A stretch of 32,681 nucleotides of DNA. Source: Bacteriovoracaceae bacterium. Its GTDB lineage: Bacteria > Bdellovibrionota > Bacteriovoracia > Bacteriovoracales > Bacteriovoracaceae. The position numbers were made by a program, and so were the translations under genes. The stretch lies in NCBI GenBank assembly GCA_023137315.1, contig JAGLPP010000017.1:1-32681 (forward strand), given 5' to 3'. The notes under the pieces are model-generated. The model ran no database searches and was not told the origin of the DNA. It saw nothing but the letters and a program-made list of their open reading frames with translations. How positions within the stretch are numbered: the stretch's first letter is position 1; every line of letters begins with the position of its first letter. Below, piece by piece: positions 2,108-17,118 of this stretch.

Positions 2108-3382
2108 TTACCTATTCGAAATAATCTTCACTCCACCCATATATGACAACAAAATATTCGGTACTGTAATCGTACCGTCTTCTTGCTGATAATTTTCCAT
2201 GATCGCAACAAGTGTTCTTCCGGCAGCAAGACCAGATCCATTCAAGGTATGAGCAAATTGCGGTTTACCATTATTATCCCGATATCTGATGGAGGCCCTT
2301 CTTGCCTGGAAATCAGTACAATTTGAAATCGACGAAATTTCACGATAACGATCCTGTCCCGGAAGCCATACCTCCAAATCAATACACCTTGTCGCACCAA
2401 AACCCATATCGCCAGAAGAAAGAAGAACCTCCCGATACGGAAGCTCCAATTTTTCCAGTATCGCACATGCCCGTCGAACCATTGCATCGTGTGCCGCGAT
2501 TGAATCCTCGGCAGCAACAATACCCACTAATTCAACCTTGTTAAATTGATGTAGTCGAATTAATCCTCGGGTATCCTTGCCATGAGATCCTGCTTCACTT
2601 CTAAAACACGGTGTATAGGCACAATATTTAATAGGCAGTTCCTTAAAACTAAAAAGCTCATCCCTTTTTAAATTAACCAGGGGAACTTCCGCCGTTGGGA
2701 TCAAATACCAATCACGCCCCTCCAGCCTGAATAAATCTTCTTCAAATTTGGGTAATTGACCAGAGCCATGCATTGAACTTGCGTTAACAATATATGGAGG
2801 AATTATTTCCTCGTATCCATTATCAAGATGATCATCAATCATAAAATTAATAAGTGCTCTTTCCAATCTCGCCAGCAACCCCCTGTTAACGACAAAACGT
2901 GATCCTGTTATTTTGGCCCCTGCCTCAAAATCCAGCATCCCTAAAGACTCCCCCAGCTCCACATGATCTTTTGGTGTAAAAGAAAACTGCTTTGGTTCTC
3001 CCCACGAATTAATTATTTTATTGGATGATTCATCTTCTCCAACAGGAACATCATCGGCCGGGATATTAGGAATCACTGACAAAATCTCTTGTTGCTGCTT
3101 TTGTATTTTCTCCAGGGTCAAACCTGAGTCCTCAATCTCTTTCTTGATAGACGCCACTTTGGTCATTTCTTTTTTTGCATCCTGGCCGTTTTTTTTAAGC
3201 TGGCCGATTTCCCTGGACAATTTCTTGACTTCTGCCCGCCTGCCTTCAACTTCTTGAATGAACTCACGTCTTTTTTTGTCCAAATTCATAATTTCATCGA
3301 CAATATTTACATCCATAAATCTCTTTTTAAGATTCTTTTTAAACAAATCCGGGTCGTTAACAATTAATTTCAGATCATGCAT
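2108..3382 (-). CDS. serS: seryl-tRNA synthetase
   Basis: This class II synthetase charges tRNA-Ser with serine in the cytoplasm. Its 424 residues match the family length. Residues about 30-102 are a charged antiparallel coiled coil that grips the long variable arm of tRNA-Ser. The catalytic domain follows, with the TAEVPLVNL serine-site segment (230-238), motif 2 FRSEAGSHGKDTRG (260-273) and motif 3 NGSGLAAGRTLVAIMENYQ (381-399). GGAGTG lies 7 bases before the ATG. The gene starts 15 bases after the upstream TPR gene and is followed by two serine tRNA genes on the same strand, so enzyme and substrates are probably co-transcribed. Confidence 0.97.
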   Translation of the reverse strand: MHDLKLIVNDPDLFKKNLKKRFMDVNIVDEIMNLDKKRREFIQEVEGRRAEVKKLSREIGQLKKNGQDAKKEMTKVASIKKEIEDSGLTLEKIQKQQQEILSVIPNIPADDVPVGEDESSNKIINSWGEPKQFSFTPKDHVELGESLGMLDFEAGAKITGSRFVVNRGLLARLERALINFMIDDHLDNGYEEIIPPYIVNASSMHGSGQLPKFEEDLFRLEGRDWYLIPTAEVPLVNLKRDELFSFKELPIKYCAYTPCFRSEAGSHGKDTRGLIRLHQFNKVELVGIVAAEDSIAAHDAMVRRACAILEKLELPYREVLLSSGDMGFGATRCIDLEVWLPGQDRYREISSISNCTDFQARRASIRYRDNNGKPQFAHTLNGSGLAAGRTLVAIMENYQQEDGTITVPNILLSYMGGVKIISNR

Positions 3383-3397
3383 TTTTTTTCACTCCAT

Positions 3398-6300
3398 TTA
3401 TCTTAGTCTTCTAATCTCTGTCTTTATTTTATTCCTGTCTGGTGCATTAGGATATAAATTCAAATAATTTTTAAAGAACTCCAATGCCAGATTCCCTTGT
3501 CCAATAACCTTGTATACATATCCCAGCTGTTTGTTGACTTCCGGATTGGTTTTTTCCTGTTCCCATGCACGGTTATAATATTCCCTCGCTGCATCATATC
3601 GTCCTTGTCGAAATTCTATAGAACCGAGATTCATTAATGCTTCTATTGATTTGGGATTCTTTGATATTGCAGTTGAAAGATTTTTTATCGCCTTTGAATA
3701 ATTGTTGCTTTTCTCTTTTTTGTTCTTGGATTGTATTGCTTTTTTAAGAAAACTTTTTCCCAGTATCATGTATCCTTTTTCACTGTTTGGATAAAATTCC
3801 GTTTCAGAGGCACCTCTCGTAATCGCTTCATCAAATGAATTTTGAAGATAGTGAAGTTTTCCAATAAAATAATTTATATCCTTGTGTGAGGGCATGTTTT
3901 CAAAAACATCCTCAAATACGGCCTTTGCATCATTATACCTTTTAACCTTCATAAGGTTTTCACCTAGTATGACTTTGTTTTTAAGATCACCTGGGTCCAA
4001 TATCGAAATTTTTTCAGAACTCTTTATGGCCTCGTTAAAATTACCCTCCATTGTCGCTTTTTTTATTAGAAATTTGTATAAGGATGTATCTTCAGTCCTT
4101 AACTTTTCAAGTTTGTTTTTGTATTTTTCATAAAACTTTACCTGCCCGCTATCATGATAAAATATAGCGATTTTTCCCAGCAATACTGGTTCATCTGGAT
4201 ATTTTTTTAATTCATTTCTTAAAAAACCGATAGCAACGTTTGCACCATCCTTGTCATAAAGAATGTCTGCATATAAGGAAATATATTCTGTATTATCCGG
4301 CTCCAATGTCATTGCTCTTTTAAGCATTGCAATACTTTTTTTATATTTTCTATATTTTAAGTATATTTTCGCCAACTCAAAATAATCCTCCGTATTCATT
4401 GGATCTCTTTCCAGACCTTCACGCAAATTCCTCATTGCAACAACCAATTTTTCTTTTTTTAAAAAAACACGTCCGACGAGGGAGGAGTACTTTGCAGAGA
4501 AGACAATTTTTTCATATTGAGAAATCAGACTCAACATCTTTTGTGCTTTGGTAACCCGGCCGGAATCAATATATGCTTCGACCAGCTTAAGCCTGATATT
4601 GATGTTGTTTTTATGTTTGGCTTGAAGTTCTTCAAGCTTCTTTATTGCCCAAAAATAGTGTCCGCGCTTTAACTGTAAATCAACCAACCACATCTGTGAT
4701 GGTATATAGTCCTTGTGTTTATCAGATGCTTCAATTGCATATTTATATGCCTCTTCCCATTTTTTCTTTTTGGCAAATCTTTGTGAAGTCCTCATGAGAT
4801 CAATTATTTCACTCTCGAGAATAATATGCTTGCTTACCTTGTCCCCTCCTGCTTCAAGTTCGGCAAGCCGGGATCTTAACTGATCGGATTCACTTATGCT
4901 CAATGCTTTTTTAAAATATTTAGCAGCCAGCTTCGGCTTTCTCTGCCAGGCACTGAGAAAGCCGCGATATTCAAGATATTTTGCATAATAAACGGGAGAA
5001 CTTTCAAGACGTAATCGTTTTAATACTTCCAAATTTTTTTCAAACTTGCTGTAATTTTTCTCTCTCAATATGTATTTATTATATTCAAGTATAAGTTGGA
5101 CTGATTTTGGATGTTTTGCGCCAGCAATTTCCAGTAATTTTTTTCCCTTGTCAAACTCCTGGTTAATCTCATGAAACATGGAACAGTATATCTCTTTTTC
5201 CGGTATACTGTTTTTTACCGAAAGAAGTTTTGTAAATATTTTTTTTGCATCGGCTAATCGACCTTCCTTTATAAAGGCACCTAAAAGTAGTGACATCAAT
5301 TTTATGTTTGGCTTTTGCTCCATACGAAGATAATCTTCCATTATTTTTATTGCCGTTTTATACTTTTGATTTTGAAAGTAAAATAATGCCGCACCATATG
5401 CAGCATTTGCATTTTTTAACAGATTAATCTTGTTGATTTCCACAAGGCGAAATAAAATACCGTTTGCCCATGACTTGTCTTTTACGTTTGGAAGCATCTC
5501 TGCATATGTTAATATCAACCAACTCAAGGCATCGTTTTTGCGAAACTGGGCCCTTGATGATGTCAGGAAATACTCGGCTGATTTTAACTTTGATTTATAT
5601 GTACCTTTGCGATATTCATTAATTCCTTTGATATAAAATTCTTTTGCAACTTCTTTATTAATATATTCATTCACAACAGGAAATTGAATCTGTGGATATA
5701 TCAGCTTGATCGCATCATCTGTATCCTCTGAAGGAAAAAACACGTACCAGGCTATCATGAAAAGCGTTACTGCATAGAGTATTCTGTTGCGCTTTTTGGG
5801 TGGTATTTTTTTTGTAAAGCTCTTGATTTTTACAAAAGTTTTTTCGCTTTTTTCTAAAATAGTCAATTGCTTTTCAAACTCTTCTTCCGCTTTTTCTGTT
5901 TCTTTTTTTATCTCCGGCAGGATTTCTTCGAGATTAACAACTTTCGTTCCGGCAGCCCGGTCAACTACTTTTTCTTTATGAGCCTCCTCCTCTTTACCCA
6001 AATCCTCATCCGGTACTTCTTCCAACTTCTCTTCTGCATAAGGAACCTGTTGCTCGATGACTTTGGTTTTATCATATTGCGTGGTTGGTTTGTGGATATC
6101 ACGCACGAGGACTGTTTTTTCAATATCACTATCATCTGAAACAGGTTCTTCCCCGGTCTCTTCTAATACCACACTTTCCGGAACATGCTCATCTTCCTTT
6201 TTAAATTCAAACTCCCGAAACTCAACTTCATCTGTTTCGGTACTCTTGTCTGCCCCACTCTTTTCCTCTGCCAGCCCCTCTCCCATGTATATTTTTTCAA

Positions 6301-6541
6301 TGGTTTTATTTGATTTTTTGTTCTCAAGATTTTCCATTGAATGTTCGTCATTAATTATTCCATTAATTAAATCCAAAATTTCATCACAATATTCAACGTG
6401 TTGCCATTTTCCGTCCGGAAAATGTTGGAATTCTTCATCACCTTCTATTTTTCCACGAATATATAGCTCTCCAACCTGACTTACTGTAAATGGGCCTACA
6501 ATTCTTCCTGATGGATATTTAATTTTATATTTTTCAGCCAT
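3398..6541 (-). CDS. GYF-domain, membrane-anchored TPR protein
   Basis: The 1047-residue protein has three parts. Residues 1-60 resemble a GYF_2-type domain (GRIVGPFT near 12-19, then a GKW near 44-46), a cytoplasmic peptide-binding module. Residues 60-240 are acidic and low in complexity, probably disordered. After a basic stretch (KKIPPKKRNR, 244-253) comes one transmembrane helix (about 254-269), so by the positive-inside rule the rest is periplasmic. Residues 290-1047 are almost entirely tetratricopeptide repeats. This design suggests a scaffold linking cytoplasm and periplasm, but the partner is unknown. The gene starts 8 bases after nuoN without a clear ribosome-binding site, so translation may be coupled to nuoN. 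Its place in this operon suggests a link to the Nuo-like complex, though it could equally serve an unrelated envelope function. Confidence 0.85.
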   Translation of the reverse strand: MAEKYKIKYPSGRIVGPFTVSQVGELYIRGKIEGDEEFQHFPDGKWQHVEYCDEILDLINGIINDEHSMENLENKKSNKTIEKIYMGEGLAEEKSGADKSTETDEVEFREFEFKKEDEHVPESVVLEETGEEPVSDDSDIEKTVLVRDIHKPTTQYDKTKVIEQQVPYAEEKLEEVPDEDLGKEEEAHKEKVVDRAAGTKVVNLEEILPEIKKETEKAEEEFEKQLTILEKSEKTFVKIKSFTKKIPPKKRNRILYAVTLFMIAWYVFFPSEDTDDAIKLIYPQIQFPVVNEYINKEVAKEFYIKGINEYRKGTYKSKLKSAEYFLTSSRAQFRKNDALSWLILTYAEMLPNVKDKSWANGILFRLVEINKINLLKNANAAYGAALFYFQNQKYKTAIKIMEDYLRMEQKPNIKLMSLLLGAFIKEGRLADAKKIFTKLLSVKNSIPEKEIYCSMFHEINQEFDKGKKLLEIAGAKHPKSVQLILEYNKYILREKNYSKFEKNLEVLKRLRLESSPVYYAKYLEYRGFLSAWQRKPKLAAKYFKKALSISESDQLRSRLAELEAGGDKVSKHIILESEIIDLMRTSQRFAKKKKWEEAYKYAIEASDKHKDYIPSQMWLVDLQLKRGHYFWAIKKLEELQAKHKNNINIRLKLVEAYIDSGRVTKAQKMLSLISQYEKIVFSAKYSSLVGRVFLKKEKLVVAMRNLREGLERDPMNTEDYFELAKIYLKYRKYKKSIAMLKRAMTLEPDNTEYISLYADILYDKDGANVAIGFLRNELKKYPDEPVLLGKIAIFYHDSGQVKFYEKYKNKLEKLRTEDTSLYKFLIKKATMEGNFNEAIKSSEKISILDPGDLKNKVILGENLMKVKRYNDAKAVFEDVFENMPSHKDINYFIGKLHYLQNSFDEAITRGASETEFYPNSEKGYMILGKSFLKKAIQSKNKKEKSNNYSKAIKNLSTAISKNPKSIEALMNLGSIEFRQGRYDAAREYYNRAWEQEKTNPEVNKQLGYVYKVIGQGNLALEFFKNYLNLYPNAPDRNKIKTEIRRLR

Positions 6542-6549
6542 ATCTAATA

Positions 6550-7932
6550 TTACTGCAACAGATAAGGTGTCAAACCACCAATCAGCATCAACAGGGCCAA
6601 CAGGGTCATTATACCGTCACTGCGAAAATTGTTAACCACCATGGTTTTCTTTTTCATTATTATTTCTTCTGGAATTATAGTAAAAATATTCATAACCATC
6701 TTTAAGATATATGCCATCATTACCAGGAACGCTATAAGCATAATCACCATTTCAACAATAAATCCCTCTTTAAAATATGTGTAGGTAATATAGTATTTTG
6801 AAGCAAACCCTGCAGTAAAAGGCAACCCCAGAATGCAAAGCAGAAAAATTACATAAAGCGTGGATTTGTAACTATTCACATAGAAGCTTCCGCTTAGTTC
6901 GTTCGCTGTATCCTGTATTCTACCGTCAGCACATAAATCCTGCATAAGATATGCACATCCTCCAAACGAAATAGCCTGTGTTGCCATGAAAAATAATGTA
7001 TATCTTTCAACAACCTCTTCGGGAACCAGATTTACAATCATAAGAATAAAGCTTGAATGTGCCATATAGAAATATGCCAATGCTTTTTTGTTTTGTTGTT
7101 GGTTGATCCCAATTATGCTTGATATTATCGCAGATGCCAATACAACAACAGTAACACCTCCAAGTATGATCTTTTGCATTTCAGGTGAACATTCAAAAAT
7201 CATCCTCTGTAACAACATCAGAAGATTGTATGCAATAACAAGCCGGACAATAATAATATTCTGAAATATGTTCTTTTTTTCCACAGAATTAAAAAGATTC
7301 GGCAGGCATATACCAAGTGGAAATATTCCCAAATAATAACACGTAATTAAAAACACAAGACTGATTGATATTAAATAAAATGACTCCTCTTTTACTACAT
7401 GTTCATATATTGAAAATGTTCCAGTACTCATATAAAAAAATGTAATTGCAAGTATGAAAAAAATCATCATCATTAATGATGAAATAAATGATTTTATTGC
7501 CGCATTATATCGTTTGTCATCGCCCCCGAGACAATTCGCCAAATCCGAAATAATGCTCAGTGAAATTATTGCAATAAAAAATGAAATGAATTCGCCTGCT
7601 CCGGCTAAAATAAGTGCAAACAACAAATATATCATAATTAATATACATTTTCCTGTTTGCTTGTTGCTGTTGAATCCATTCATTATAATTGACATGACAG
7701 ACATTGTGCCAACTATCCACATAAATTTGTTTTTAACGCCGGAAAAAGAAATTAACACATGTGGAACTTGAATCAGATTTCCCAAAAAAAATACCGCCAT
7801 CGCTGCTGTTGCTGCAATAGAAATCAGCCAAACCATTATTCTTCCGTATTTTCCGACACAAAGCAACACCATTGATAATAAAACAATCAGGGCATAACCA
7901 TGAACCGCATATTGTAAGATATAATCCAACAC
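6550..7932 (-). CDS. nuoN: NuoN-like complex I membrane subunit (divergent)
   Basis: NuoN is an antiporter-like proton channel subunit of NADH:quinone oxidoreductase. This 460-residue, roughly 13-14-helix protein shows NQQQNKKALAYFYMAHSSF (277-295), matching the family's QTNxKRxLAYSSIAH segment, and GLPFTAGFASKYY (369-381), matching the last-helix GxPxxAGFxxKFY with its lysine (Lys379) kept. Two key residues look lost. The TM5 glutamate site reads FISFFIAIISL (115-125) with no acid after Glu114, and the lysine of the FKxxxxPFHxWxPD motif is Tyr200 in YYLGIFPLGICLPNLF. Translation begins at GTG, preceded by AAGGAAAAGGGG, 15 bases after nuoM. By sequence it is a NuoN homologue; proton pumping by the usual route is doubtful. 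Confidence 0.85.
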   Translation of the reverse strand: MLDYILQYAVHGYALIVLLSMVLLCVGKYGRIMVWLISIAATAAMAVFFLGNLIQVPHVLISFSGVKNKFMWIVGTMSVMSIIMNGFNSNKQTGKCILIMIYLLFALILAGAGEFISFFIAIISLSIISDLANCLGGDDKRYNAAIKSFISSLMMMIFFILAITFFYMSTGTFSIYEHVVKEESFYLISISLVFLITCYYLGIFPLGICLPNLFNSVEKKNIFQNIIIVRLVIAYNLLMLLQRMIFECSPEMQKIILGGVTVVVLASAIISSIIGINQQQNKKALAYFYMAHSSFILMIVNLVPEEVVERYTLFFMATQAISFGGCAYLMQDLCADGRIQDTANELSGSFYVNSYKSTLYVIFLLCILGLPFTAGFASKYYITYTYFKEGFIVEMVIMLIAFLVMMAYILKMVMNIFTIIPEEIIMKKKTMVVNNFRSDGIMTLLALLMLIGGLTPYLLQ

Positions 7933-7947
7933 AACCCCTTTTCCTTG

Positions 7948-9402
7948 TTATCCTAAAATACCTGCTATTATATTAGGATAAATTCCAACCGTTAAAACAA
8001 GAATTATAAGCATAATCAAAATAAAACCCTCACGTGCACTAACATCATTGATTGATGCATCATCCACCGTTATCTTATTTTTCACGAGCATAATCATTTG
8101 AAAATACCTTAGTAGATAAATCGGACAGATTGCAAAACATGCGGCAACAAACAAACCTACGACAAGATTCATTCTGACAGCATCGATTGTTACCATATAA
8201 CGTGAGATAAACCCCGAAGACATTGGCGGCCCAAGACATAAAATAATTAATATAAAAAACAACCTGTTAAACAGCGGCATTCTTGCTTTCATATTACCGT
8301 AACTTTCAAAAGTTATTTTTTTCATTCTGTCCTGTAAAACATGAACCACATATAGCATGCCCGCAACATGTATAAGATGATTAAAAATTACAATATACGT
8401 ACCTCCAACAGTGTTTGATTCATATAAGAAAATTGAAACCATCAAAAGTGACAGGTGACCAAAAATAAAATAAATTACAACCTCTTTTATATCGTTCCAC
8501 CTCAGAGCACACAATGTGCAGTATAAACATCCCAAAACCCCGACTATGGCTATTGACATTGAAGCACCTGCCATCTCGTTGGTAAAAGCGGGCACAATTA
8601 GTTTTATCATGCCAACAACTGCAACCAATGGGAGTGAACTCAATATCAAAATATTGCAAAATGTTGGCATCCTTTTACACAACTGTAAAAGCGGAAAATG
8701 AAACGGAAAAACAGTCATTTTAATAAACATGCTCATGCACAAACAGATAAAAATGATTGCCGACGAATAACTGCCAACCTTGTTGCTTGTAATCAGATTT
8801 TTTAAAACTTCCGGTCCAAGACTCGAAACTCCAAGCTCCCCAGTTGATACCATTGTTAAATAAGTAATTGATGTCACGGAAAGCAGCGTGCCTATTGCCA
8901 AAAACACAACATAAAGCAGTATCTTATTTCTTAAATTCTTATCACAAAAAACAACCATGAGAATTGCCAATGGAAGAATCAACATTTCCGAAAACATCAA
9001 AAATCCCATCATGTTATTCGCAAGAACAGCTCCACATAGAATCCAGACAATAAAATAAGTCAACACCTTAAACAGCCTCTCTCCCCTTTTATCCATATCC
9101 CATCGTGGCAAACTTACTATTAACAATATTAATGAAATCATTATTATAAAAATCGGGCCATCTCCATCCAACACCAGCTGACCAGGATTTAAATCAGGAA
9201 AGCTGGCAATAGTAAGATCCACGGACTTGAGAGCATGTCCTTTATGTAGAAATATTATTAATCCGGTAATAAACAAATGTGTTAATGATGTTGCAACATG
9301 CACCATCCCACCAAGAACATTCCCCCAAATGCCAAATAAAAGCATTATTGCAATCGGAAAAAAGAAATAAATATGAAGTGAATATTCTAAAATGTTTTCC
9401 AT
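7948..9402 (-). CDS. nuoM: NuoM-like complex I membrane subunit
   Basis: This 484-residue antiporter-like subunit is the best conserved of the three. It keeps the TM5 glutamate (Glu139 in MFSEMLILPLAIL), the TM7 lysine followed by the PFH motif (Lys228, MFIKMTVFPFH) and an NDIKEVVIY segment (303-311) like the family's DLKKLIAYSS. The lysine expected in the following helix and the glutamate of the FxGEF motif (here FISRY, 398-402) are missing. I chose the ATG at 9402, overlapping the nuoL stop by 16 bases, because it gives a normal NuoM N-terminus; the nearest Shine-Dalgarno-like sequence (AGGGA) is rather far. The frame is open upstream as far as 9510, but using that would overlap nuoL by about 120 bases. 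Confidence 0.87.
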   Translation of the reverse strand: MENILEYSLHIYFFFPIAIMLLFGIWGNVLGGMVHVATSLTHLFITGLIIFLHKGHALKSVDLTIASFPDLNPGQLVLDGDGPIFIIMISLILLIVSLPRWDMDKRGERLFKVLTYFIVWILCGAVLANNMMGFLMFSEMLILPLAILMVVFCDKNLRNKILLYVVFLAIGTLLSVTSITYLTMVSTGELGVSSLGPEVLKNLITSNKVGSYSSAIIFICLCMSMFIKMTVFPFHFPLLQLCKRMPTFCNILILSSLPLVAVVGMIKLIVPAFTNEMAGASMSIAIVGVLGCLYCTLCALRWNDIKEVVIYFIFGHLSLLMVSIFLYESNTVGGTYIVIFNHLIHVAGMLYVVHVLQDRMKKITFESYGNMKARMPLFNRLFFILIILCLGPPMSSGFISRYMVTIDAVRMNLVVGLFVAACFAICPIYLLRYFQMIMLVKNKITVDDASINDVSAREGFILIMLIILVLTVGIYPNIIAGILG

Positions 9403-11282
9403 AAAATTAAAATTACGTTCCCTAATATAATTATAGTACCACTTGTTAAAATCAACAAAATCATTGATGACAATGTCATTCCCTTCAAATTTCCAAACAT
9501 TGCAAACCATGACGCCATTCTTACAGTATTTTTTTTGAAAAATCGGCCAATACCTTCATTTATATATTTATCAAGCATAAAAGAGAGAAATCTTATTGGA
9601 ATAAAAATGACATTTTTTGCAATTCCCGCCTGCCCGAATTCCATGTTGCTAACGTGGGATAATAATCTCGTTTTACGGTTTAATACCTCAATAAATCTTT
9701 TGTTCCTTTTTCCATAAAGAAAAATATATTGTGTCACCAAAATTGCTATAAAGGCGAATCCAATTATCAGAATTTGCCAAAACTTAAGATCAAATGTGTT
9801 TATATCGTTTATTGCAATATGTTTGTTAATAAATTTTTGAAATATTCCTGCCCATTCTCCGGCCATGCTCTTTGGCATCCCCAGATACCCGGCCGTAAAA
9901 ACTATAAAAGCCATCGTCGTCAAATATGTCCTGTAGGTTACTCTTTCCACAATGGTTGCTTCACCACTGGTTGTCCGTGAGTGAAAAAACATCTGTAAAA
10001 TAATATTCATCACCGACAAGACCACAATAACTCTCGTCAATGTTAACAACACAAAACAAAACACCCCCTCTCTGCCAAGGGCCATGGTAGACCAGAGAAC
10101 TTCATTTACACTGAAAAAACACGGGAAACCGGGAATGGGGGATATTGACAACAACACGAACACCATTGTCCAAAATGTCCAGCACACACCTTTTTTAGCA
10201 AATATTTTTTTATAGTTAAATGTTTTGAAATCTGCACCTATTCTAAAAATCGTTATCATAAATATTTGGTTTATCAACAGCATTGTAAACATATGATATA
10301 CTGACGTTCCAAAGAGTCCTGTGCCAGCCGCAACAAATGAAAATGATATTTCTATGTTTATTAAAAATGTTGCAATCTTTCTCAAATCCTTTTCATAAAA
10401 CAACATCCATGAAAATAAAAAAGCGGAAATTGCAGGTATCCAAACAATAATATTTCTTATTGTTTGATATTCCACAAATAATGGGGCCATTCTCATTATG
10501 GCAAAAATGCCCATACCATACCCTGCACTACTATTCATAAAAAACAGGTGTCCACGATGGCCCTTGGAAATATCATGTCCCCAAAACAATGCCGGCAAGG
10601 AATTTGCTTTTCCGAGTATCCCAACCACAATAGCAATGGCATAAAAGCAATAATTACTGGTATTTTCACCTGCGCCAATAATTTGAAAAATCTCTGTAAA
10701 TGAATTATTTTTAAATGTAATGGCCATTCCGGCAATACCAATAAATATAAAGAAATCAAATACCAGATTTAAAAATAACAGTTTATTACCTCTTTTGAAG
10801 TTGGCACCTGGTTCCCATATTTTTGGCTTACACATGACATAATTGCAAAAACAAAACCCTTGCCAGCTCCAGAACAAAACAACCAGGTTTTCAGCAAGAT
10901 AAAACATGGTCATAAAAAAAACCAAAAGAGGTAGATAATTATAAAAACTGGAATCAGCTTTTTTTTCTTGTTTTGTATTTATTACCAGCAGTGACACAAT
11001 CGCAACGCCAATTGAAAACAAGACAAAAAATACTGCCAATTCATCAAACCTGAGGGCAAAATAAACCTTTAGACCCTCAATATTTATCCAATCCCAATAA
11101 TTTATATTAATCTCTGTTTTGGCACCCCTGCTATATTGAAATATAGTCAGCAAAACCGCGCTGGCTAACAGAAAAATCGTCATACACTTAGCCTTGTGGC
11201 TATTTGACTTGAATATAAAGTAATTCACCAAAAAAGGAATCAATAACAAAAACGGAATAATTCCTATATACCAACCTTCCAT
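9387..11282 (-). CDS. nuoL: NuoL-like complex I membrane subunit (divergent)
   Basis: The 631 residues match NuoL length, including the C-terminal lateral-helix region. Recognisable segments are FWSWQGFCFCNYV (137-149, family GWEGVGLCSYLLI), GKANSLPALFWGHD (224-237, family KSAQLPLQTWLPDAM), EKDLRKIATF (297-306), and PGFPCFFSVNEVL (384-396, family xxAGFxSKDEIL). Asp176 and Lys225 are kept. The TM5 glutamate is Gln141, the histidine and lysine of the HAFFK segment are Met334 and Asn338, and the KD pair is Val392-Asn393. The distal pumping route seen in E. coli therefore appears dismantled, while the reading frame is intact. AGAGGA precedes the ATG, and nuoK ends 4 bases upstream. Confidence 0.87.
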   Translation of the reverse strand: MEGWYIGIIPFLLLIPFLVNYFIFKSNSHKAKCMTIFLLASAVLLTIFQYSRGAKTEININYWDWINIEGLKVYFALRFDELAVFFVLFSIGVAIVSLLVINTKQEKKADSSFYNYLPLLVFFMTMFYLAENLVVLFWSWQGFCFCNYVMCKPKIWEPGANFKRGNKLLFLNLVFDFFIFIGIAGMAITFKNNSFTEIFQIIGAGENTSNYCFYAIAIVVGILGKANSLPALFWGHDISKGHRGHLFFMNSSAGYGMGIFAIMRMAPLFVEYQTIRNIIVWIPAISAFLFSWMLFYEKDLRKIATFLINIEISFSFVAAGTGLFGTSVYHMFTMLLINQIFMITIFRIGADFKTFNYKKIFAKKGVCWTFWTMVFVLLSISPIPGFPCFFSVNEVLWSTMALGREGVFCFVLLTLTRVIVVLSVMNIILQMFFHSRTTSGEATIVERVTYRTYLTTMAFIVFTAGYLGMPKSMAGEWAGIFQKFINKHIAINDINTFDLKFWQILIIGFAFIAILVTQYIFLYGKRNKRFIEVLNRKTRLLSHVSNMEFGQAGIAKNVIFIPIRFLSFMLDKYINEGIGRFFKKNTVRMASWFAMFGNLKGMTLSSMILLILTSGTIIILGNVILILWKTF

Positions 11283-11286
11283 CTAC

Positions 11287-11586
11287 TTAATCCTCTTCCG
11301 TTACATTTTTCATATCCAGTGTTTTTTCTTTTTGAAAATAAATCATTATAAAAACCAAGGACAATATTACAAATATGATTTGAAAAAGTATTATGGAAAA
11401 AGCAAATATTTGAACATTTATTTCGCCGGCTCCCGGTAATTGTAAAATTAAAATTACAATTGCAACCATGTTTAAAAGTAAACATTGAAAACATGACAAT
11501 ATATCCCTTCTTAAAAAACAACCTGTCCATGCAACACAAAAAACCAGCAAGAACAAGGCAAATCCAATCATCTCAACGCTTATCAC
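11287..11586 (-). CDS. nuoK: NuoK-like complex I membrane subunit lacking both key glutamates
   Basis: NuoK is the small three-helix subunit that forms part of the first proton channel next to NuoJ and NuoA. I chose the GTG at 11586 because GGAGG stands 6 bases before it and the resulting 99-residue protein, beginning MISVEMIGFALF, matches the usual length (100 in E. coli). It overlaps nuoJ by 14 bases. Landmarks are GCFLRRD (22-28), LLLN (36-39) and the charged C-terminus. The glutamate expected four residues before the conserved Asn is Cys35 (Gln34 next to it), and the second glutamate (Glu72 in E. coli) is Gln69. No acidic residue lies within the membrane helices. A full complex would need another proton route. 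Confidence 0.85.
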   Translation of the reverse strand: MISVEMIGFALFLLVFCVAWTGCFLRRDILSCFQCLLLNMVAIVILILQLPGAGEINVQIFAFSIILFQIIFVILSLVFIMIYFQKEKTLDMKNVTEED

Positions 11587-12070
11587 TCGACTCCTCCGCA
11601 TCGTTCCTTAAAAATACTGTCAATATCAGTGTACCCAGTATCGAAAACATTACCGCTATAAATGGCAAGAAATTTTTACGGTTAAGAAACATAAATATAT
11701 CTGCTTTTTTTTCAATGCTTGTCGTATTTGTTAAAACTTCCCGATTGTACTCAAAAAGTATAAACATTGCTCCTACGAAAATCATTGTGGAGATCATTCC
11801 CAAAATTATTGTTTTTATTTTTATTTTATAATCATCCTGATATAATTTGTAATCGTAAAATATGTGACCAAAAACAAAAAAACAAATGCTCGTAAAAAGC
11901 CCTACCACCAGTTGCACCACTGCTAAAAACTCATATCCATTGCGAATCATGTATAATGACAGGAATCCCACTATCAAAAAATAAATTATTGTTGTTTTTA
12001 CTGCATCCTGCTTGATAACAAATAATATAGCAAAAATAAAAACAATAACCGCCAATATAAATTCCACCAT
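11573..12070 (-). CDS. nuoJ: NuoJ-like complex I membrane subunit
   Basis: This 165-residue, five-helix protein matches NuoJ in length and position. The stretch EFLAVVQLVVGLFTSICFFVFG corresponds to the family's EFLAxVQxxVYVGAIMVLFLFV helix, but the conserved Tyr-Val-Gly of the pi-bulge region is Val-Val-Gly. The start chosen is the ATG at 12070, which overlaps the nuoH stop as TGATG and is preceded by AAGG; an ATG nine codons earlier would extend it to 12097 but overlaps nuoH more and has a poorer context. In the family the third helix couples quinone chemistry to the proton channels. The C-terminal helix is followed by a short charged tail. Confidence 0.82.
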   Translation of the reverse strand: MVEFILAVIVFIFAILFVIKQDAVKTTIIYFLIVGFLSLYMIRNGYEFLAVVQLVVGLFTSICFFVFGHIFYDYKLYQDDYKIKIKTIILGMISTMIFVGAMFILFEYNREVLTNTTSIEKKADIFMFLNRKNFLPFIAVMFSILGTLILTVFLRNDAEESSDKR

Positions 12071-13119
12071 CAGAATGCCGCCTTGAAATACAAACAAAAT
12101 GTGGACATCAATAAATCAAATATTGCAAGAGGTAATAAATAATATTTGGCAAAATTAACAAACTGACTGACTTTAAATCTTGCAAGTCCCCATTTTGACA
12201 TGGAAACAACAATCGTTGCAATCAAAAGCTTTATCAACATACTTGCTGCTCGTAATACCTGTATGTTTTTATAAAAAACCACCTCCGAATGGTCCGGCAC
12301 CCAAATTGTCTCATAACCACCAAGAAAAACCATTATGAAAACCAAAATCATTGTAGCCAGATAAACATTTGCGGACAATTTGTATAAAAGATACTTTATA
12401 GATAAACATTCTCCATGAAATCCATCACTCAATATATCGTTTTTTTCGTCATCAAACGGAAACAATCCGTTGTTGACCAGGATACAAAAGAAAAACAATA
12501 TTGCCCCCACTGGCTGAACAAAAATACCCCAACGTGGAATAATCCCCCATAACTGCCCCGTCTGCGTGACAACAATTTCATGTAAATTACCAGACCTGTT
12601 GTTTATATAGACTGACAAGAAAATTATCAGCATGACTAATTCAATATAAACCTGTTTTTGCAAAAACCTCCATATTCCAATCATTGAAACCTTGTTATTG
12701 CTTATCCACTCTGGAAGGATTTTATGCAGACTCCCAAGAAACAAAAATAAAAACAGGTATAGTATGGCCGGATTTATGGTTAAAACCTCCATGTTCCCAA
12801 CATCTTGCAATAAATTAATCTCAACACCGAAAGGCAATAATGAACCTGGCAGAAAAGCTAAAATCATGGATATTGCCACAGCAACAAAAAGAGTAGTTGG
12901 TTTAATATTGTGAGATATTGTTCTTTCCTTGAATATAAGTTTCAAAAAATCTGCAATAATCTTCTTTAGCGATCGCCCAATTCCCGACATTAAACCTCTT
13001 TTTCTGGCCAAAAATTCATTGCATGTATTAATAACGATATTTACAAGCAATCCTGAACATGAAAGCAAAATAACTGTTCCCAGAATCTTTATAATAATGA
13101 GAGGTATTTCAGGTTTCAT
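12070..13119 (-). CDS. nuoH: NuoH-like complex I membrane subunit (divergent quinone loop)
   Basis: NuoH holds the quinone chamber at the junction with the peripheral arm. The 349 residues (usual 320-350) include LARKRGLMSGIGRSLKKII (37-55) and DFLKLIFKE (57-65), matching the first cytoplasmic loop, WISNNKVSMIG (138-148), a helix with Glu160, and PFD (221-223). The loop normally reads PFDLPExExELxxGYHTEYSG; here it is PFDDEKNDILSDGFHGECLS, so most of the conserved Pro-Glu-x-Glu residues and the preceding Arg are gone, though some acids remain. It starts inside the nuoA stop (ATGA). With no NuoB, NuoD or NuoI in the operon, its quinone role is uncertain. Confidence 0.83.
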   Translation of the reverse strand: MKPEIPLIIIKILGTVILLSCSGLLVNIVINTCNEFLARKRGLMSGIGRSLKKIIADFLKLIFKERTISHNIKPTTLFVAVAISMILAFLPGSLLPFGVEINLLQDVGNMEVLTINPAILYLFLFLFLGSLHKILPEWISNNKVSMIGIWRFLQKQVYIELVMLIIFLSVYINNRSGNLHEIVVTQTGQLWGIIPRWGIFVQPVGAILFFFCILVNNGLFPFDDEKNDILSDGFHGECLSIKYLLYKLSANVYLATMILVFIMVFLGGYETIWVPDHSEVVFYKNIQVLRAASMLIKLLIATIVVSMSKWGLARFKVSQFVNFAKYYLLPLAIFDLLMSTFCLYFKAAF

Positions 13120-13481
13120 TTATTGCTACCATTTTTAAAAGTTTGAATACCCCAGATGGCAAATATATAAGCAACAACAGTGGTTAAAATCAGGATTAAA
13201 AAAAAAGCAATTTTCTCAGTACTTGTATTGCTACCAACCACCGCCAATCCCCATGGTAATAATAAAATGACCATGGAAACAAAAACCATCATCAATATAA
13301 ATTCATACGCATTATGAACGGTATAGCGACGCCTTGCGCCACCAAATGGTTTGACACCACCCTCATAGCTATTAAGGATTCTTTGTTTTTTTCGAAAACA
13401 GAGAATCCTAGCACCGACCAAGACCCCCATGCTTACGCATAGAACCGCGCCAACATAGGCAAAAAGAACAAAAATTTTCAT
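13116..13481 (-). CDS. nuoA: NuoA-like complex I membrane subunit (divergent)
   Basis: The 121-residue, three-helix protein matches NuoA/ND3. SYEGGVKPFGGARRRYTV (38-55) corresponds to the family's YECGxxPxGxARxxFxV loop, but the conserved cysteine is Gly41. In the second helix the family's FDxE before xxxLxPW reads F67-V68-S69-M70, so both acidic residues are absent, while LLPW (74-77) is kept. It is the first gene of the operon, 139 bases from the divergent mfd start, and no clear Shine-Dalgarno is seen (GATGGG is nearest). The next gene, nuoH, overlaps it by ATGA. In standard operons nuoB, C and D would follow; here they do not. Confidence 0.83.
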   Translation of the reverse strand: MKIFVLFAYVGAVLCVSMGVLVGARILCFRKKQRILNSYEGGVKPFGGARRRYTVHNAYEFILMMVFVSMVILLLPWGLAVVGSNTSTEKIAFFLILILTTVVAYIFAIWGIQTFKNGSNK

Positions 13482-13595: not shown

Positions 13596-13609
13596 GCGAT
13601 TGGTATAAT
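13582..13609 (+). promoter_or_regulatory. probable mfd promoter, extended -10
   Basis: TTGAAA (13582-13587) is followed after 16 bases by TATAAT (13604-13609), preceded by TGG, which makes an extended -10 (TGnTATAAT). Transcription would start near 13616, only about five bases before the ATG at 13621. No Shine-Dalgarno sequence lies before that ATG, so the message may be leaderless. Confidence 0.6.
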
Positions 13610-13620
13610 TGTTTCAAAAA

Positions 13621-16600
13621 ATGACTTTATTTTTATCCATTACCCACAAAATAAAAAACTGGTTTAATAGCGGAACTGAGCCGCTGAACATCAATGGCAT
13701 TACACCATCCCAGTGGATTTTTCTATTTAACAACTTTATAAGGGATGGTTTGGGGATAACCCAAAAAAATCATTTGATCCTGTGTCCGACAGTCGAACTG
13801 GCTGAATCAATACAAGTATCATTATCAAAAATATCCACAGAAAAACACGTACATTTCTACCCTGGACTTGAAAATTCCCCATACGGTAAAATACTGCCTT
13901 CACAAAGTGATCTTCTTCAAAGATTCAAGGTTTTGGATATTCTTGCCCAAAAAAAAACAAGCAACGTAATCATTATGACTGTTGAGGCTTTTCTATTAAA
14001 AATGCCACCGTGTAATTTTTTTGTTTCCAAAGCATTCGACATTGCTGTTTCGGACATTATTTCCCGCGAAGAACTATCAAAAAAACTTGTTGGGGTTGGC
14101 TATGCCCACACAAATTCCACCGAGGAACCGGGAACTTTTTGCTCAAAGGGTGAAATTTTTGACATTTATCCCATATCCGGACGCCCCATTCGAATTATTT
14201 ATTATGATGACATGATTGAACACATCTATCACATAGACCTGGAAACCAATAAAAGTATTCGCAACGACAATATTAATCGCATACATATCGCAGTCTCTCC
14301 AAATATATTCTCTTCCGAAGAATTTACACAAAACCTGAGAAAATACATACCTATTCCCGGACCACAGTTTAAAAATAAATTTGAACGAAGAAAGGAAATT
14401 TTTAATAAATTATCCCACAATCAGTTATTTGAGGATTTTCCAAATTTTGTCTCTCTTTTTATGGAACAAACCACCGGTTTTGAGCATTATCTCAACCCAA
14501 ATGACTGGATTATCACATCTGTTAACCATAACGAAAACATGGATATATTCACAATGCTTCTCGAAAAGTTACGGGAAGAATTTAATACCTCACTTACAGA
14601 ACCAGACAATAGTCTTCTTTTGCCTTCTCCTGAAAAGCTTTACTCTTATACATTTTCCGATTCTCTGAATAATTATAAATCCATTTTAACCAATACTGTT
14701 GAAATTAATCTTGATATAAATAAAATACTTGCCTCAAAAATCGATCTTGCATTTGAAAATACACCGCACTTTATTGGAAAACACATAAACCAGTCACTGG
14801 GCAAACACGAATATATCAAGCATGCGTTGGAATTTTTACGCTCACATTTTGAGAATAAAGGCAGCATCGTATTTGCGACATTTGTAAAGGAAACAAAGGC
14901 TGAAATAGAATATCTGATGGATTTATACGAATTCCCACAATCACTAAGAGAACGTATTTTCTTCAAAAATTTCAACCTGTCTGATGGTTTTTATTATGAT
15001 CTTGAAAACATTCTAATCATCTCAGAAGGTGATCTGTTTGGCAGAAAACAGGTTAAATCAAAATCAAATTACCGAAAAAATATCGACCTGTTCGCAGAAC
15101 GCCTGGCTACAATAAAACCTGGTGACTATGTAATGCACAGCGAACACGGATTAGGTATCTACAGGGGCCTGCAAACCATTGCTATTGATTCCAGCAATAC
15201 TGATTATCTGATTATTGAATATACCGAAGGCGACAAAATTTACGTTCCCGTTTACAAGATGAATCTGGTTCAAAAACATGCCGACACCACGGCAAACCTG
15301 TCTCCTGCCAGCCTCAGATCAAACAAATTTAATCAACTTAAAAACAAAGCACGCAACTCTGCCAAGAAACTTGCATTTGACCTTCTTAAGTTGCAAGCCG
15401 AAAGACAATCACACACGGCTTTTGCATTTTCCCCTCCTGATCATGTTTTCAAGGAATTTGAACTTGCCTTTCAATTTACGGAAACTCCAGATCAGATCAG
15501 CGCCATAGATAATATTATAGAATCAATGCAAAAACCTGTTCCCATGGACTACCTTGTATGTGGAGATGTTGGATACGGAAAAACAGAAATAGCCATGAGG
15601 GCCGCATTCAAGGCGATTTTGGATGACAGACAGGTTGCTGTTTTAGTGCCAACAACCATTCTGGCATTACAACACCATCAATCCTTTTGTGAACGATTTA
15701 AAAACTTTCCTGTTAATATTGAGTTTATTTCAAGATTCAAGTCAGCAAAACAAATAAAGGAGATTAAACAGAATTTAAAAGAAGGTAAAATAGATGTCAT
15801 CATTGGCACTCACAAGCTTCTACATGAATCTGTTATATTCAAATCCCTGGGACTTGTTATTGTTGACGAAGAGCAGCGATTCGGTGTTTCACATAAGGAA
15901 AAATTAAAATTATACAAAGCCACTGTTGATTTTATGACATTAACAGCAACTCCAATTCCACGCACACTACAATTAGCCTTTTTAGGTCTAAAAGACCTGG
16001 TACTGATTCAAACCCCACCGCCCAAAAGACAATCCATAAAAACTTACATCGTTAAAAATGACGAGAGCACAATACAATCAGCAATAAAAAAAGAACTTCA
16101 ACGCGGTGGACAAGTCTTCTTTGTTCATAATCGTGTAAAGGATATCGAAATAATTTACGGAAAATTATCTGAGCTGGTACCTGACGCCAGTATCGTCATT
16201 GGACACGGACAATTACCGGAAAAAATCCTCGAACAACGAATTGAGGCATTTTATTCAGGAAAATTTCAAGTACTACTTTGTACAACAATAATAGAATCAG
16301 GGCTGGATATCCCAAATGCAAATACAATGATTATTAATCGTGCTGATACTTTCGGCCTCGCACAGTTGCACCAATTGCGCGGAAGAATTGGCAGATCCGA
16401 CAGAAAGGCATACGCCTATTTTATGGTTCCAGAATATCACAACATAACGGTGGAAGCAGAAAGAAGACTCAAGGCACTGCAAACATATGCGGAGATTGGA
16501 GCAGGATTTTCTCTTGCTTCCTGTGATCTTGAATTCAGGGGTGCCGGTGACATTCTTGGTTCCAGTCAATCAGGTCATATTGAATCGATAGGACTCGAAC

Positions 16601-17118
16601 TATATATGGAGCTCCTCCAGGAAGCCATACGGGAAATAAAGGGTGAACGAAAAATTATCAACAAAAACATCGAAATTTCAACGCCTTATCCTTCATATAT
16701 TCCCAACAATTACATTTGCGATTCATCTGCGAGATTAAAATACTACAAAAAATTATCAAATTGCCTGGAACACGGACCATTAACAAATATTTTTGATGAG
16801 ATGTGTGATGTTTACGGCAGACCACCCAAAGAGCTTGAAAATTTATTTACCATTATCCGCACACGCATTCAGGTTCAAACCATTGGACTCAGAAATATAA
16901 AGGTGGCGGGAAATATTATTTCAATGGCATTTGATAAAAACATTTTGGATAATGATGCGATATTAAGAAACAAAATTGTTGAAACATTTTTAAAACGTCC
17001 AAAAGTATACCAATTTACTCGGGATTATAAGGTTGTCTACTGTCACAAGAACAGCGTCGGCCCGGCTGATCTTCTTGAGTTTTCAAAAAATATTGCTGAG
17101 CAAATATTACCGTGTTAA
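13621..17118 (+). CDS. mfd: transcription-repair coupling factor Mfd
   Basis: Mfd removes RNA polymerase stalled at DNA damage and recruits UvrA. The product (1165 residues from the ATG at 13621; a TTG at 13609 would add four) has the full order: a UvrB-like N-terminal region, the CarD-like RNA polymerase interaction domain (about 495-560, PGDYVMHSEHGLGIYRG then the VPVYKMNLV segment), Walker A GDVGYGKTE (about 647-655), DEEQ box VDEEQRFGVSH (about 748-758), the TATPIPRTL motif, and the HQLRGRIGR motif VI followed by the translocation-in-repair and C-terminal domains. It heads a plus-strand cluster that also contains uvrA, its repair partner. There is no ribosome-binding site before the start. 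Confidence 0.96.
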   Translation: MTLFLSITHKIKNWFNSGTEPLNINGITPSQWIFLFNNFIRDGLGITQKNHLILCPTVELAESIQVSLSKISTEKHVHFYPGLENSPYGKILPSQSDLLQRFKVLDILAQKKTSNVIIMTVEAFLLKMPPCNFFVSKAFDIAVSDIISREELSKKLVGVGYAHTNSTEEPGTFCSKGEIFDIYPISGRPIRIIYYDDMIEHIYHIDLETNKSIRNDNINRIHIAVSPNIFSSEEFTQNLRKYIPIPGPQFKNKFERRKEIFNKLSHNQLFEDFPNFVSLFMEQTTGFEHYLNPNDWIITSVNHNENMDIFTMLLEKLREEFNTSLTEPDNSLLLPSPEKLYSYTFSDSLNNYKSILTNTVEINLDINKILASKIDLAFENTPHFIGKHINQSLGKHEYIKHALEFLRSHFENKGSIVFATFVKETKAEIEYLMDLYEFPQSLRERIFFKNFNLSDGFYYDLENILIISEGDLFGRKQVKSKSNYRKNIDLFAERLATIKPGDYVMHSEHGLGIYRGLQTIAIDSSNTDYLIIEYTEGDKIYVPVYKMNLVQKHADTTANLSPASLRSNKFNQLKNKARNSAKKLAFDLLKLQAERQSHTAFAFSPPDHVFKEFELAFQFTETPDQISAIDNIIESMQKPVPMDYLVCGDVGYGKTEIAMRAAFKAILDDRQVAVLVPTTILALQHHQSFCERFKNFPVNIEFISRFKSAKQIKEIKQNLKEGKIDVIIGTHKLLHESVIFKSLGLVIVDEEQRFGVSHKEKLKLYKATVDFMTLTATPIPRTLQLAFLGLKDLVLIQTPPPKRQSIKTYIVKNDESTIQSAIKKELQRGGQVFFVHNRVKDIEIIYGKLSELVPDASIVIGHGQLPEKILEQRIEAFYSGKFQVLLCTTIIESGLDIPNANTMIINRADTFGLAQLHQLRGRIGRSDRKAYAYFMVPEYHNITVEAERRLKALQTYAEIGAGFSLASCDLEFRGAGDILGSSQSGHIESIGLELYMELLQEAIREIKGERKIINKNIEISTPYPSYIPNNYICDSSARLKYYKKLSNCLEHGPLTNIFDEMCDVYGRPPKELENLFTIIRTRIQVQTIGLRNIKVAGNIISMAFDKNILDNDAILRNKIVETFLKRPKVYQFTRDYKVVYCHKNSVGPADLLEFSKNIAEQILPC

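Follow-up and report, generated by a model that had tools for sequence, protein, structure and literature searches.

The stretch of DNA analyzed here (the window: 32,681 nucleotides, contig JAGLPP010000017.1 of assembly GCA_023137315.1) makes up an entire contig, from a genome of 95% completeness grouped with the Bacteriovoracales (Bdellovibrionota). Its minus strand encodes a protein that combines a GYF domain, a transmembrane (TM) helix and a long array of tetratricopeptide repeats (TPR), which we identify as the Bacteriovoracales orthologue of Bdellovibrio bacteriovorus Bd0075, and which is the last gene of an operon of divergent genes for membrane subunits of respiratory complex I (nuo genes). 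The gene and the parts of its product are as follows.

3398..6541, minus strand: GYF-TM-TPR protein, 1047 aa, orthologue of B. bacteriovorus Bd0075 (profile match, predicted structure)
6353..6541, minus strand: cytoplasmic GYF domain, residues 1-63 (AlphaFold, Foldseek, Pfam)
5783..6352, minus strand: acidic linker, mostly disordered, residues 64-253 (TM/charge analysis, predicted structure)
5726..5782, minus strand: one TM helix, residues 254-272, N-in by charge (sequence)
3404..5656, minus strand: extracytoplasmic TPR array, residues 296-1046 (Pfam, predicted structure)

The open reading frame that a preliminary description of this DNA had reported is real and lies on the minus strand: it starts with ATG, translation of the same interval on the plus strand contains 50 stops, and strong orthologues (E <= 1e-57) are present in 32 of the 36 family genomes searched, so that it is not a chance frame. 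The domain organization proposed there is also borne out. The model of residues 1-73 has a predicted local distance difference test score (pLDDT) of 86.7, and its confident Foldseek matches are exclusively GYF domains (probability 0.85-1.00, with a modest best E of 1.1e-3), including PDB 7z3c, the GYF domain of Myxococcus GltJ. Among 35 orthologues, 17 match Pfam GYF_2 with E<=1 (best E 0.0011), and this family is not among the best 25 matches listed for the window protein. The linker, taken as residues 66-253, is 28% Asp/Glu, and the TM helix is preceded by seven Lys/Arg in 15 residues versus one after it, indicating an N-in/C-out topology. The TPR array is helical and spans about 750 residues (mean pLDDT of the predicted structure 80.6), and a Foldseek search with the whole protein returned generic TPR scaffolds and nothing else.

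A profile built from the 35 orthologues (cut-off E<=1e-30) matches 272 of 290 genomes of the phylum, among them 92 of the 97 in family f1, which is that of the window (f4, f5 and similar labels denote other families of the same set). The matches include genome G103, presumably an HD100-like B. bacteriovorus, in which the open reading frame is 965 aa long when counted from an internal Met, and is followed by a 102-aa membrane protein and then by serS. The length of the G103 frame equals that printed for Bd0075 (965 aa; PMC12034629), which together with the profile match, and with the 102-aa protein and serS after that frame, identifies the window protein as an orthologue of Bd0075. The latter is described as a protein with a TM helix whose GYF-like domain is cytoplasmic and whose TPRs are extracytoplasmic, and as binding Bd0474 in a bacterial two-hybrid assay (PMC12034629); its mutant neither attaches to nor kills prey, and killing is regained upon complementation (PMC6561027). 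Neither "NADH" nor "seryl" appears in the main text of the former paper, and neither "NADH" nor "nuo" in the latter. The window protein thus resembles Bd0075 in domain order, topology, serS neighborhood and profile match, and in the presence of a partner orthologue in the same genome, but differs in that its gene ends a nuo operon, in that no 102-aa protein precedes serS, and in its low sequence identity. GltJ of Myxococcus xanthus shares the GYF fold, but is a 674-aa gliding-machinery protein for which no TPR is listed, and its homologues are reported to be absent from Bdellovibrio (PMC3169522).

With respect to the partner, G103 contains a frame of 674 aa, the printed length of Bd0474 (PMC12034629), adjoined by one of 387 aa (386 from Met) that fits Bd0473; in B. 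bacteriovorus, Bd0474 lies in an operon with tadC (PMC6561027). In the window genome, the Bd0474 orthologue carries a TM helix along with two FHA domains (E 1.3e-30) and matches TPR weakly, with another FHA gene adjoining it, and in genome G002 the Bd0474-type FHA genes sit after a T2SSF (TadC-type) gene. By analogy with Bdellovibrio, the window protein may bind this putative partner. A paralogue with a weaker match, on contig C207 of the window genome (G000), was considered as the Bd0474 partner and set aside, since this TPR protein begins like a lipoprotein and a search of its contig revealed no FHA gene.

Taking these observations together, we consider it rather probable that the TPR protein is a Bd0075-type envelope scaffold for prey attachment and killing, encoded by the last gene of a nuo operon next to a degenerate complex I. 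The N-terminal GYF domain would recruit cytoplasmic partners, the single helix would anchor the protein in the inner membrane, and the periplasmic TPR superhelix would dock further partners, for example the FHA-TM-TPR protein of Bd0474 type that belongs to the Tad/type IVb pilus cluster, so that the whole would act as an envelope scaffold. The link to the cell envelope that the preliminary description suggested is, in this respect, plausible.

The immediate neighborhood of the gene comprises the nuo genes, set out further below, and two others.

2108..3382, minus strand: serS, downstream neighbor also found in Bdellovibrio (Pfam)
13609..17118, plus strand: mfd-like neighbor, divergent from the nuo operon (a gene that we take to be mfd)

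As initially described, the TPR gene starts 8 bases after nuoN (6541 versus 6550), downstream of seven same-strand genes for membrane subunits, N, M, L, K, J, H and A (6550-13481). No terminator-like match lies between nuoN and the TPR gene, while such matches exceed those in shuffled sequences over the window as a whole (16 versus 7.9, standard deviation 3.1) and promoter-like matches do not (54 versus 49.1, standard deviation 6.9). The TPR gene is presumably co-transcribed with the nuo genes. To place this arrangement in the family, we used 33 f1 loci from 32 genomes (G026 being represented twice). Loci of relatives (n=25), retrieved in a search with 11 closer orthologues, came from Bacteriovoracaceae, Halobacteriovorax and RIFOX "Bdellovibrionales" metagenome-assembled genomes (MAGs), among others. 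An upstream neighbor of the TPR gene is present in 32 f1 loci; the distance between the two has a median of 5.5 bases and does not exceed 20 bases in 21 of these loci, and in 12 loci the genes overlap. The order nuo...N-TPR recurs in five loci outside f1, in f4, f5, f12, f8 and f20, with serS after the TPR gene in all except that of f12 (in f8 and f20 as a serS-like frame judged by eye), and at least seven further genomes have NuoH and the TPR protein on the same contig and strand. The last position in a nuo operon is thus an arrangement common to several families of the phylum. No nuo gene lies beside the TPR gene in the region read of the HD100-like locus or in loci L066 and L068; the separation of the two that would speak against the proposed association is not seen within f1, but is found in the f6 and f11 loci read. 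We note that G026 holds two TPR copies, one (L034) after a divergent set and one (L058) after a canonical-looking antiporter-like gene at a contig end, and the second copy could be contamination.

Several points weigh against the scaffold interpretation. Counting a nuo set as upstream when at least three membrane genes lie directly upstream on the same strand, 31 of the 33 f1 loci have a nuo or nuo-like membrane set in that position (the exceptions being L058, cut by the contig end, and L053 of genome G018, which has none), compared with serS in only 17 and mfd in 15. Conservation of the nuoN-TPR-serS neighborhood therefore holds for the nuo-like set and more weakly for serS, and the closer association with the former suggests a tie to the complex. 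Identity to the protein of the Bdellovibrionaceae family is low (16% for L068), and the role in predation would be carried over to the window organism from Bd0075 of Bdellovibrio. Finally, the statistical association with Bd0474 presented next rests on eight co-absences that all fall in f7 or f9, that is, in two families rather than in many independent events. As a separate observation, the L053 locus reads mfd-TPR-serS, with the entire nuo set missing between these genes.

Across the 290 genomes, the TPR protein tends to be missing together with Bd0474, and not clearly so with NuoH. The TPR protein is absent from 18 genomes, the Bd0474 profile from 20 and both from 8 (Fisher p 3e-6), whereas the absences of TPR and NuoH, the latter missing from 21 genomes, coincide in three and are not clearly linked (p 0.13); these statistics ignore shared ancestry, and as many of the genomes are MAGs, absence calls are unsafe in the fragmented ones. 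Strict co-occurrence with complex I was not borne out. The TPR protein is kept in 18 of the 21 genomes without a NuoH match (20 of which are named, the remaining one not being among the TPR-less genomes), including G018, which has no PF00346 or PF00146 match and no recognizable complex I, yet keeps TPR, Bd0474 and a lipoprotein discussed below. Conversely, families f7 and f9 have NuoH (except G058) and lack the TPR protein. A gene that occurs away from nuo, as in the case of Bd0075, is kept without complex I and is missing despite it does not, on this comparative evidence, encode a dedicated complex I factor.

We next turn to the divergent nuo set of the window, in which residues are compared with those of canonical relatives, at columns that match E. 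coli numbering at near-constant offsets.

6550..7932, minus strand: divergent NuoN; E->I123, K->Y200, K->R230, distal K kept (K379) (Pfam, alignment)
7948..9510, minus strand: divergent NuoM; central K->L295, distal E->R437, E175 and K264 kept (Pfam, alignment)
9387..11282, minus strand: divergent NuoL; E->Q141, K->N338, K->V392, D->N393, K225 kept (Pfam, alignment)
11287..11601, minus strand: divergent NuoK; neither membrane glutamate kept (L42, F77) (Pfam, alignment)
11573..12097, minus strand: divergent NuoJ (gene order and profile)
12070..13119, minus strand: divergent NuoH (Pfam, alignment)
13116..13481, minus strand: divergent NuoA; D->V68, E->M70 (Pfam, alignment)

Pfam scores are mostly weak (38.5 bits for NuoN, 53 for NuoL, 75.6 for NuoM and 138 for NuoH) and NuoJ of the window has no valid Pfam match, while NuoL, NuoM and NuoN are the sole PF00361 matches in the window genome. 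The listed start of NuoM overlaps nuoL by 124 bases, and an internal ATG about 36 codons later is probably the better start. NuoN has lost the glutamate and the first lysine, with the central lysine replaced by arginine, and NuoL has lost the glutamate, the central and distal lysines and the aspartate. The Asp/Glu pair lost from NuoA is likewise a channel element. The channel roles of the residues in NuoL, M, N and K are taken from PMC9271201 and PMC13073174, in which the E. coli NuoN mutants E133A and K217A still pump. Single losses hence prove little, and the case for a complex that no longer pumps rests on their number.

The peripheral subunits NuoB, NuoCD and NuoI of the window genome are encoded on another contig, beside Na+-NQR. 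NuoB keeps all four Cys, which are the ligands of N2, and NuoI keeps its two 4Fe-4S motifs; the second His of the NuoD motif HPATHG, a quinone-site residue, is gone at the aligned column in 14 of 14 divergent NuoCD rows, including that of the window. No NuoEFG (NADH) module was found in the 95% complete genome when its PF01512 matches were checked: there are five such proteins, none beside nuoB-CD-I, and none of the four scanned exceeds the NuoF cut-off (for the fifth, an adjacent frame was scanned), with one being RnfC over cut-off, one matching RnfC best but below cut-off, and two, of 588 and 656 aa, matching NuoF below cut-off in other redox clusters. As an aside, loci L213-L217 show Rnf and Na+-NQR in this genome, together with a protein that resembles [FeFe]-hydrogenase and includes a histidine kinase part. 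The set beside the TPR gene of the window thus resembles the membrane arm of respiratory complex I (NuoA, H, J, K, L, M, N) in gene order and subunit-specific homology, but differs from it in the loss of channel residues and of the quinone-site His, in having no NuoEFG that could be found, and in the shrunken sets of relatives. Judged from these sequence features, the nuo genes beside the TPR gene in this family encode a degenerate complex I, very probably one unable to pump in the manner of complex I.

The relatives show how far this degeneration can proceed. We parsed 48 TPR-adjacent sets, some genomes being included twice (18 of 66 loci were unparsable as seven genes or were set aside). The summed length is 2480-2564 aa in nine canonical loci, 2359 aa in the window and 1273-2368 aa in the other 38 divergent sets. 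The antiporter-like subunits shrink toward half size, and the seven genes mostly keep their order. We note that in L060 (G004) one short antiporter-like gene (214 aa) is left, together with K', J', H' and A' as assigned by size and order. In hhalign comparisons, the intermediate sets match canonical subunits one-to-one (diagonal probability 97-100%), but the most reduced sets are near zero, with a slight signal for H and K, so that their link to complex I runs through the intermediates. Two reduced groups ("marine" and "halo") match the intermediates best on the diagonal for six of seven subunits, several of these at low probability (2-42%), and M' fails in both, so that in reduced sets it is assigned by order alone; the smallest reduced group links to the intermediates for J and K only.

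Between three genomes of one genus, canonical L/M/N are 88-99% identical, versus 33-53% for L'/M'/N' and 61-74% for A'/H'/J'/K', with 69-74% for the lipoprotein and 84% for the TPR protein, and the genes compared contain no internal stops. The ratio of nonsynonymous to synonymous substitution rates (dN/dS) lies at 0.10-0.29 in the divergent membrane genes for those pairs with a finite dS, versus 0.02-0.06 in the canonical ones (dS being saturated for many pairs, several values are not estimable); at these ratios, the divergent genes are under purifying selection. Degeneration extends to the peripheral subunits: the NuoB cysteine ligands are lost in 4 of 12 aligned divergent rows (G034, G032, G067 and G009), and G015 has a 402-aa NuoCD remnant with no B or I beside it. 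G014 has an operon in the order B-CD-E-F-G-I, and in G005 (L205:7681-10492) frames of 133, 369 and 434 aa occupy the E-F-G positions after lipoprotein-nuoB-nuoCD; the F frame is a weak PF01512 match, and the three probably represent what is left of an NADH module.

In many relatives there is also a second, canonical ("type 2") membrane set. That the divergent set is a recent copy of it was considered and rejected, as the canonical rows of a NuoH tree form a 100/100 clade without divergent rows, although branches are long and the exact place of the latter is unsure. Separately, the type 2 peripheral operon (B-C-D-I) starts in three of three loci with a protein of 311-326 aa that has a signal-peptide-like start, two of which have weak metallopeptidase-like Pfam matches (E 0.006-0.014).

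L147:7233-8168: first gene of type 2 operon
L149:11925-12893: first gene of type 2 operon
L151:7058-8038: first gene of type 2 operon

In the accessible parts of the open-license literature, PMC10225642 and PMC4014512 included, we found no paper on degenerate complex I, or on complex I in Bacteriovoracales or Bdellovibrionota.

The peripheral operon of the window genome is headed by a further gene.

L076:14879-16555 (G000, contig C147), minus strand: lipoprotein of the window genome, heading the nuoB-CD-I operon

A predicted lipoprotein of 483-558 aa precedes nuoB, or the place of a degenerate or missing nuoB, in all six f1 peripheral loci first read. Members share 28-38% pairwise identity, the lipobox Cys and eight invariant Cys; they match no Pfam family significantly (best E 0.18) and no sequence in the PDB. 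The position that follows the lipobox Cys, which indicates the membrane destination, is A or S in six of six, pointing to the outer membrane, where the protein is probably located. A profile of the family matches 83 of the 290 genomes, namely 82 of the 97 in f1 and one partial match in f2. In 9 of 13 further f1 loci it lies directly before nuoB and nuoCD. The remaining four are those of G018 and G006, where nuoB/CD/I are lacking, of G012, with a weak NuoCD only, and of G011, at a contig end. This cysteine-rich family is new, nearly confined to f1, and kept even where nuo genes are gone. The TPR protein does not need it, as 12 of the 15 f1 genomes without a lipoprotein match have TPR.

In light of these data, other readings of the locus can be weighed. 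One, compatible with the scaffold interpretation and in our view possible but on balance doubtful, is that in f1 the TPR protein forms the periplasmic part of a degenerate, non-energy-converting membrane platform, perhaps with the lipoprotein. The TPR gene keeps its place by the nuo-like set, whereas mfd and serS change position, the seven shrunken genes remain in order at dN/dS below 0.3 where dS is estimable, and the lipoprotein family heads the partner operon; however, G018 has TPR and lipoprotein without recognizable nuo genes, the lipoprotein of G006 has no nuoB/CD/I beside it, TPR occurs outside f1 without degeneration of the complex, and most lipoprotein-less f1 genomes have it. Gene order favors one physical machine of TPR protein and degenerate complex, and strict dependence is countered by the genomes in which TPR outlives complex I.

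Rather unlikely, to our mind, is that the TPR gene is a bystander sharing an old transcript with a degenerate complex that is disappearing now that Na+-NQR, Rnf or a second complex I has taken its place. Both nqrF/E and rnfC/D are over cut-off in the window genome, many relatives have the second canonical set, and the nuo set is wholly lost in G018, but reading frames are intact in dozens of loci across many genera, purifying selection still acts, and the operon-specific lipoprotein is well conserved. We regard as improbable that the complex still carries out redox chemistry while lacking the NADH module and full pumping, for instance as a ferredoxin- or hydrogenase-linked 11-subunit complex. 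Complex I-like enzymes of 11 subunits without NADH module reportedly exist as functional enzymes (PMC11238625), and the window set resembles them in having A, B, CD and H-N and no NuoEFG, with the NuoB cysteines and NuoI motifs kept; unlike them, it has lost channel and quinone residues, with the HPATHG His gone from every divergent row and the NuoB Cys from a third of those aligned. We give least credit to a role of the TPR protein dedicated to a working complex I, whether in its assembly or as an accessory subunit, as the preliminary description had proposed, since, for all its last position in the nuo operon in f1, f4, f5, f8, f12 and f20 and the tight or overlapping spacing, the Bdellovibrio orthologue has no adjacent nuo, TPR and NuoH part company in both directions across the phylum, and channel residues are missing from the window complex.

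The interpretation of the TPR protein as a Bd0075-type scaffold ties a predation-essential protein of unknown mechanism to a testable genomic context. A more speculative extension, which we think unlikely as it stands, is that Bacteriovoracaceae contain a "ghost" of complex I, non-pumping and in places non-redox, in which the seven shrinking subunits and NuoCD would serve as a platform that, with the TPR scaffold and the lipoprotein, would form an envelope-spanning predation machine. In any case, the genomes of living organisms display the decay of complex I as a natural series, which shows which parts can be lost and suggests an order: from the full operon (outgroup families, with B-CD-E-F-G-I in G014), through a vestigial NADH module (G005), the window (no NADH module found, channel residues lost) and Halobacteriovorax (short antiporter-like subunits), to a NuoCD remnant alone in the partner operon (G015) and, ultimately, the disappearance of everything (G018). 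This series raises the question of what the non-pumping remainder is kept for.

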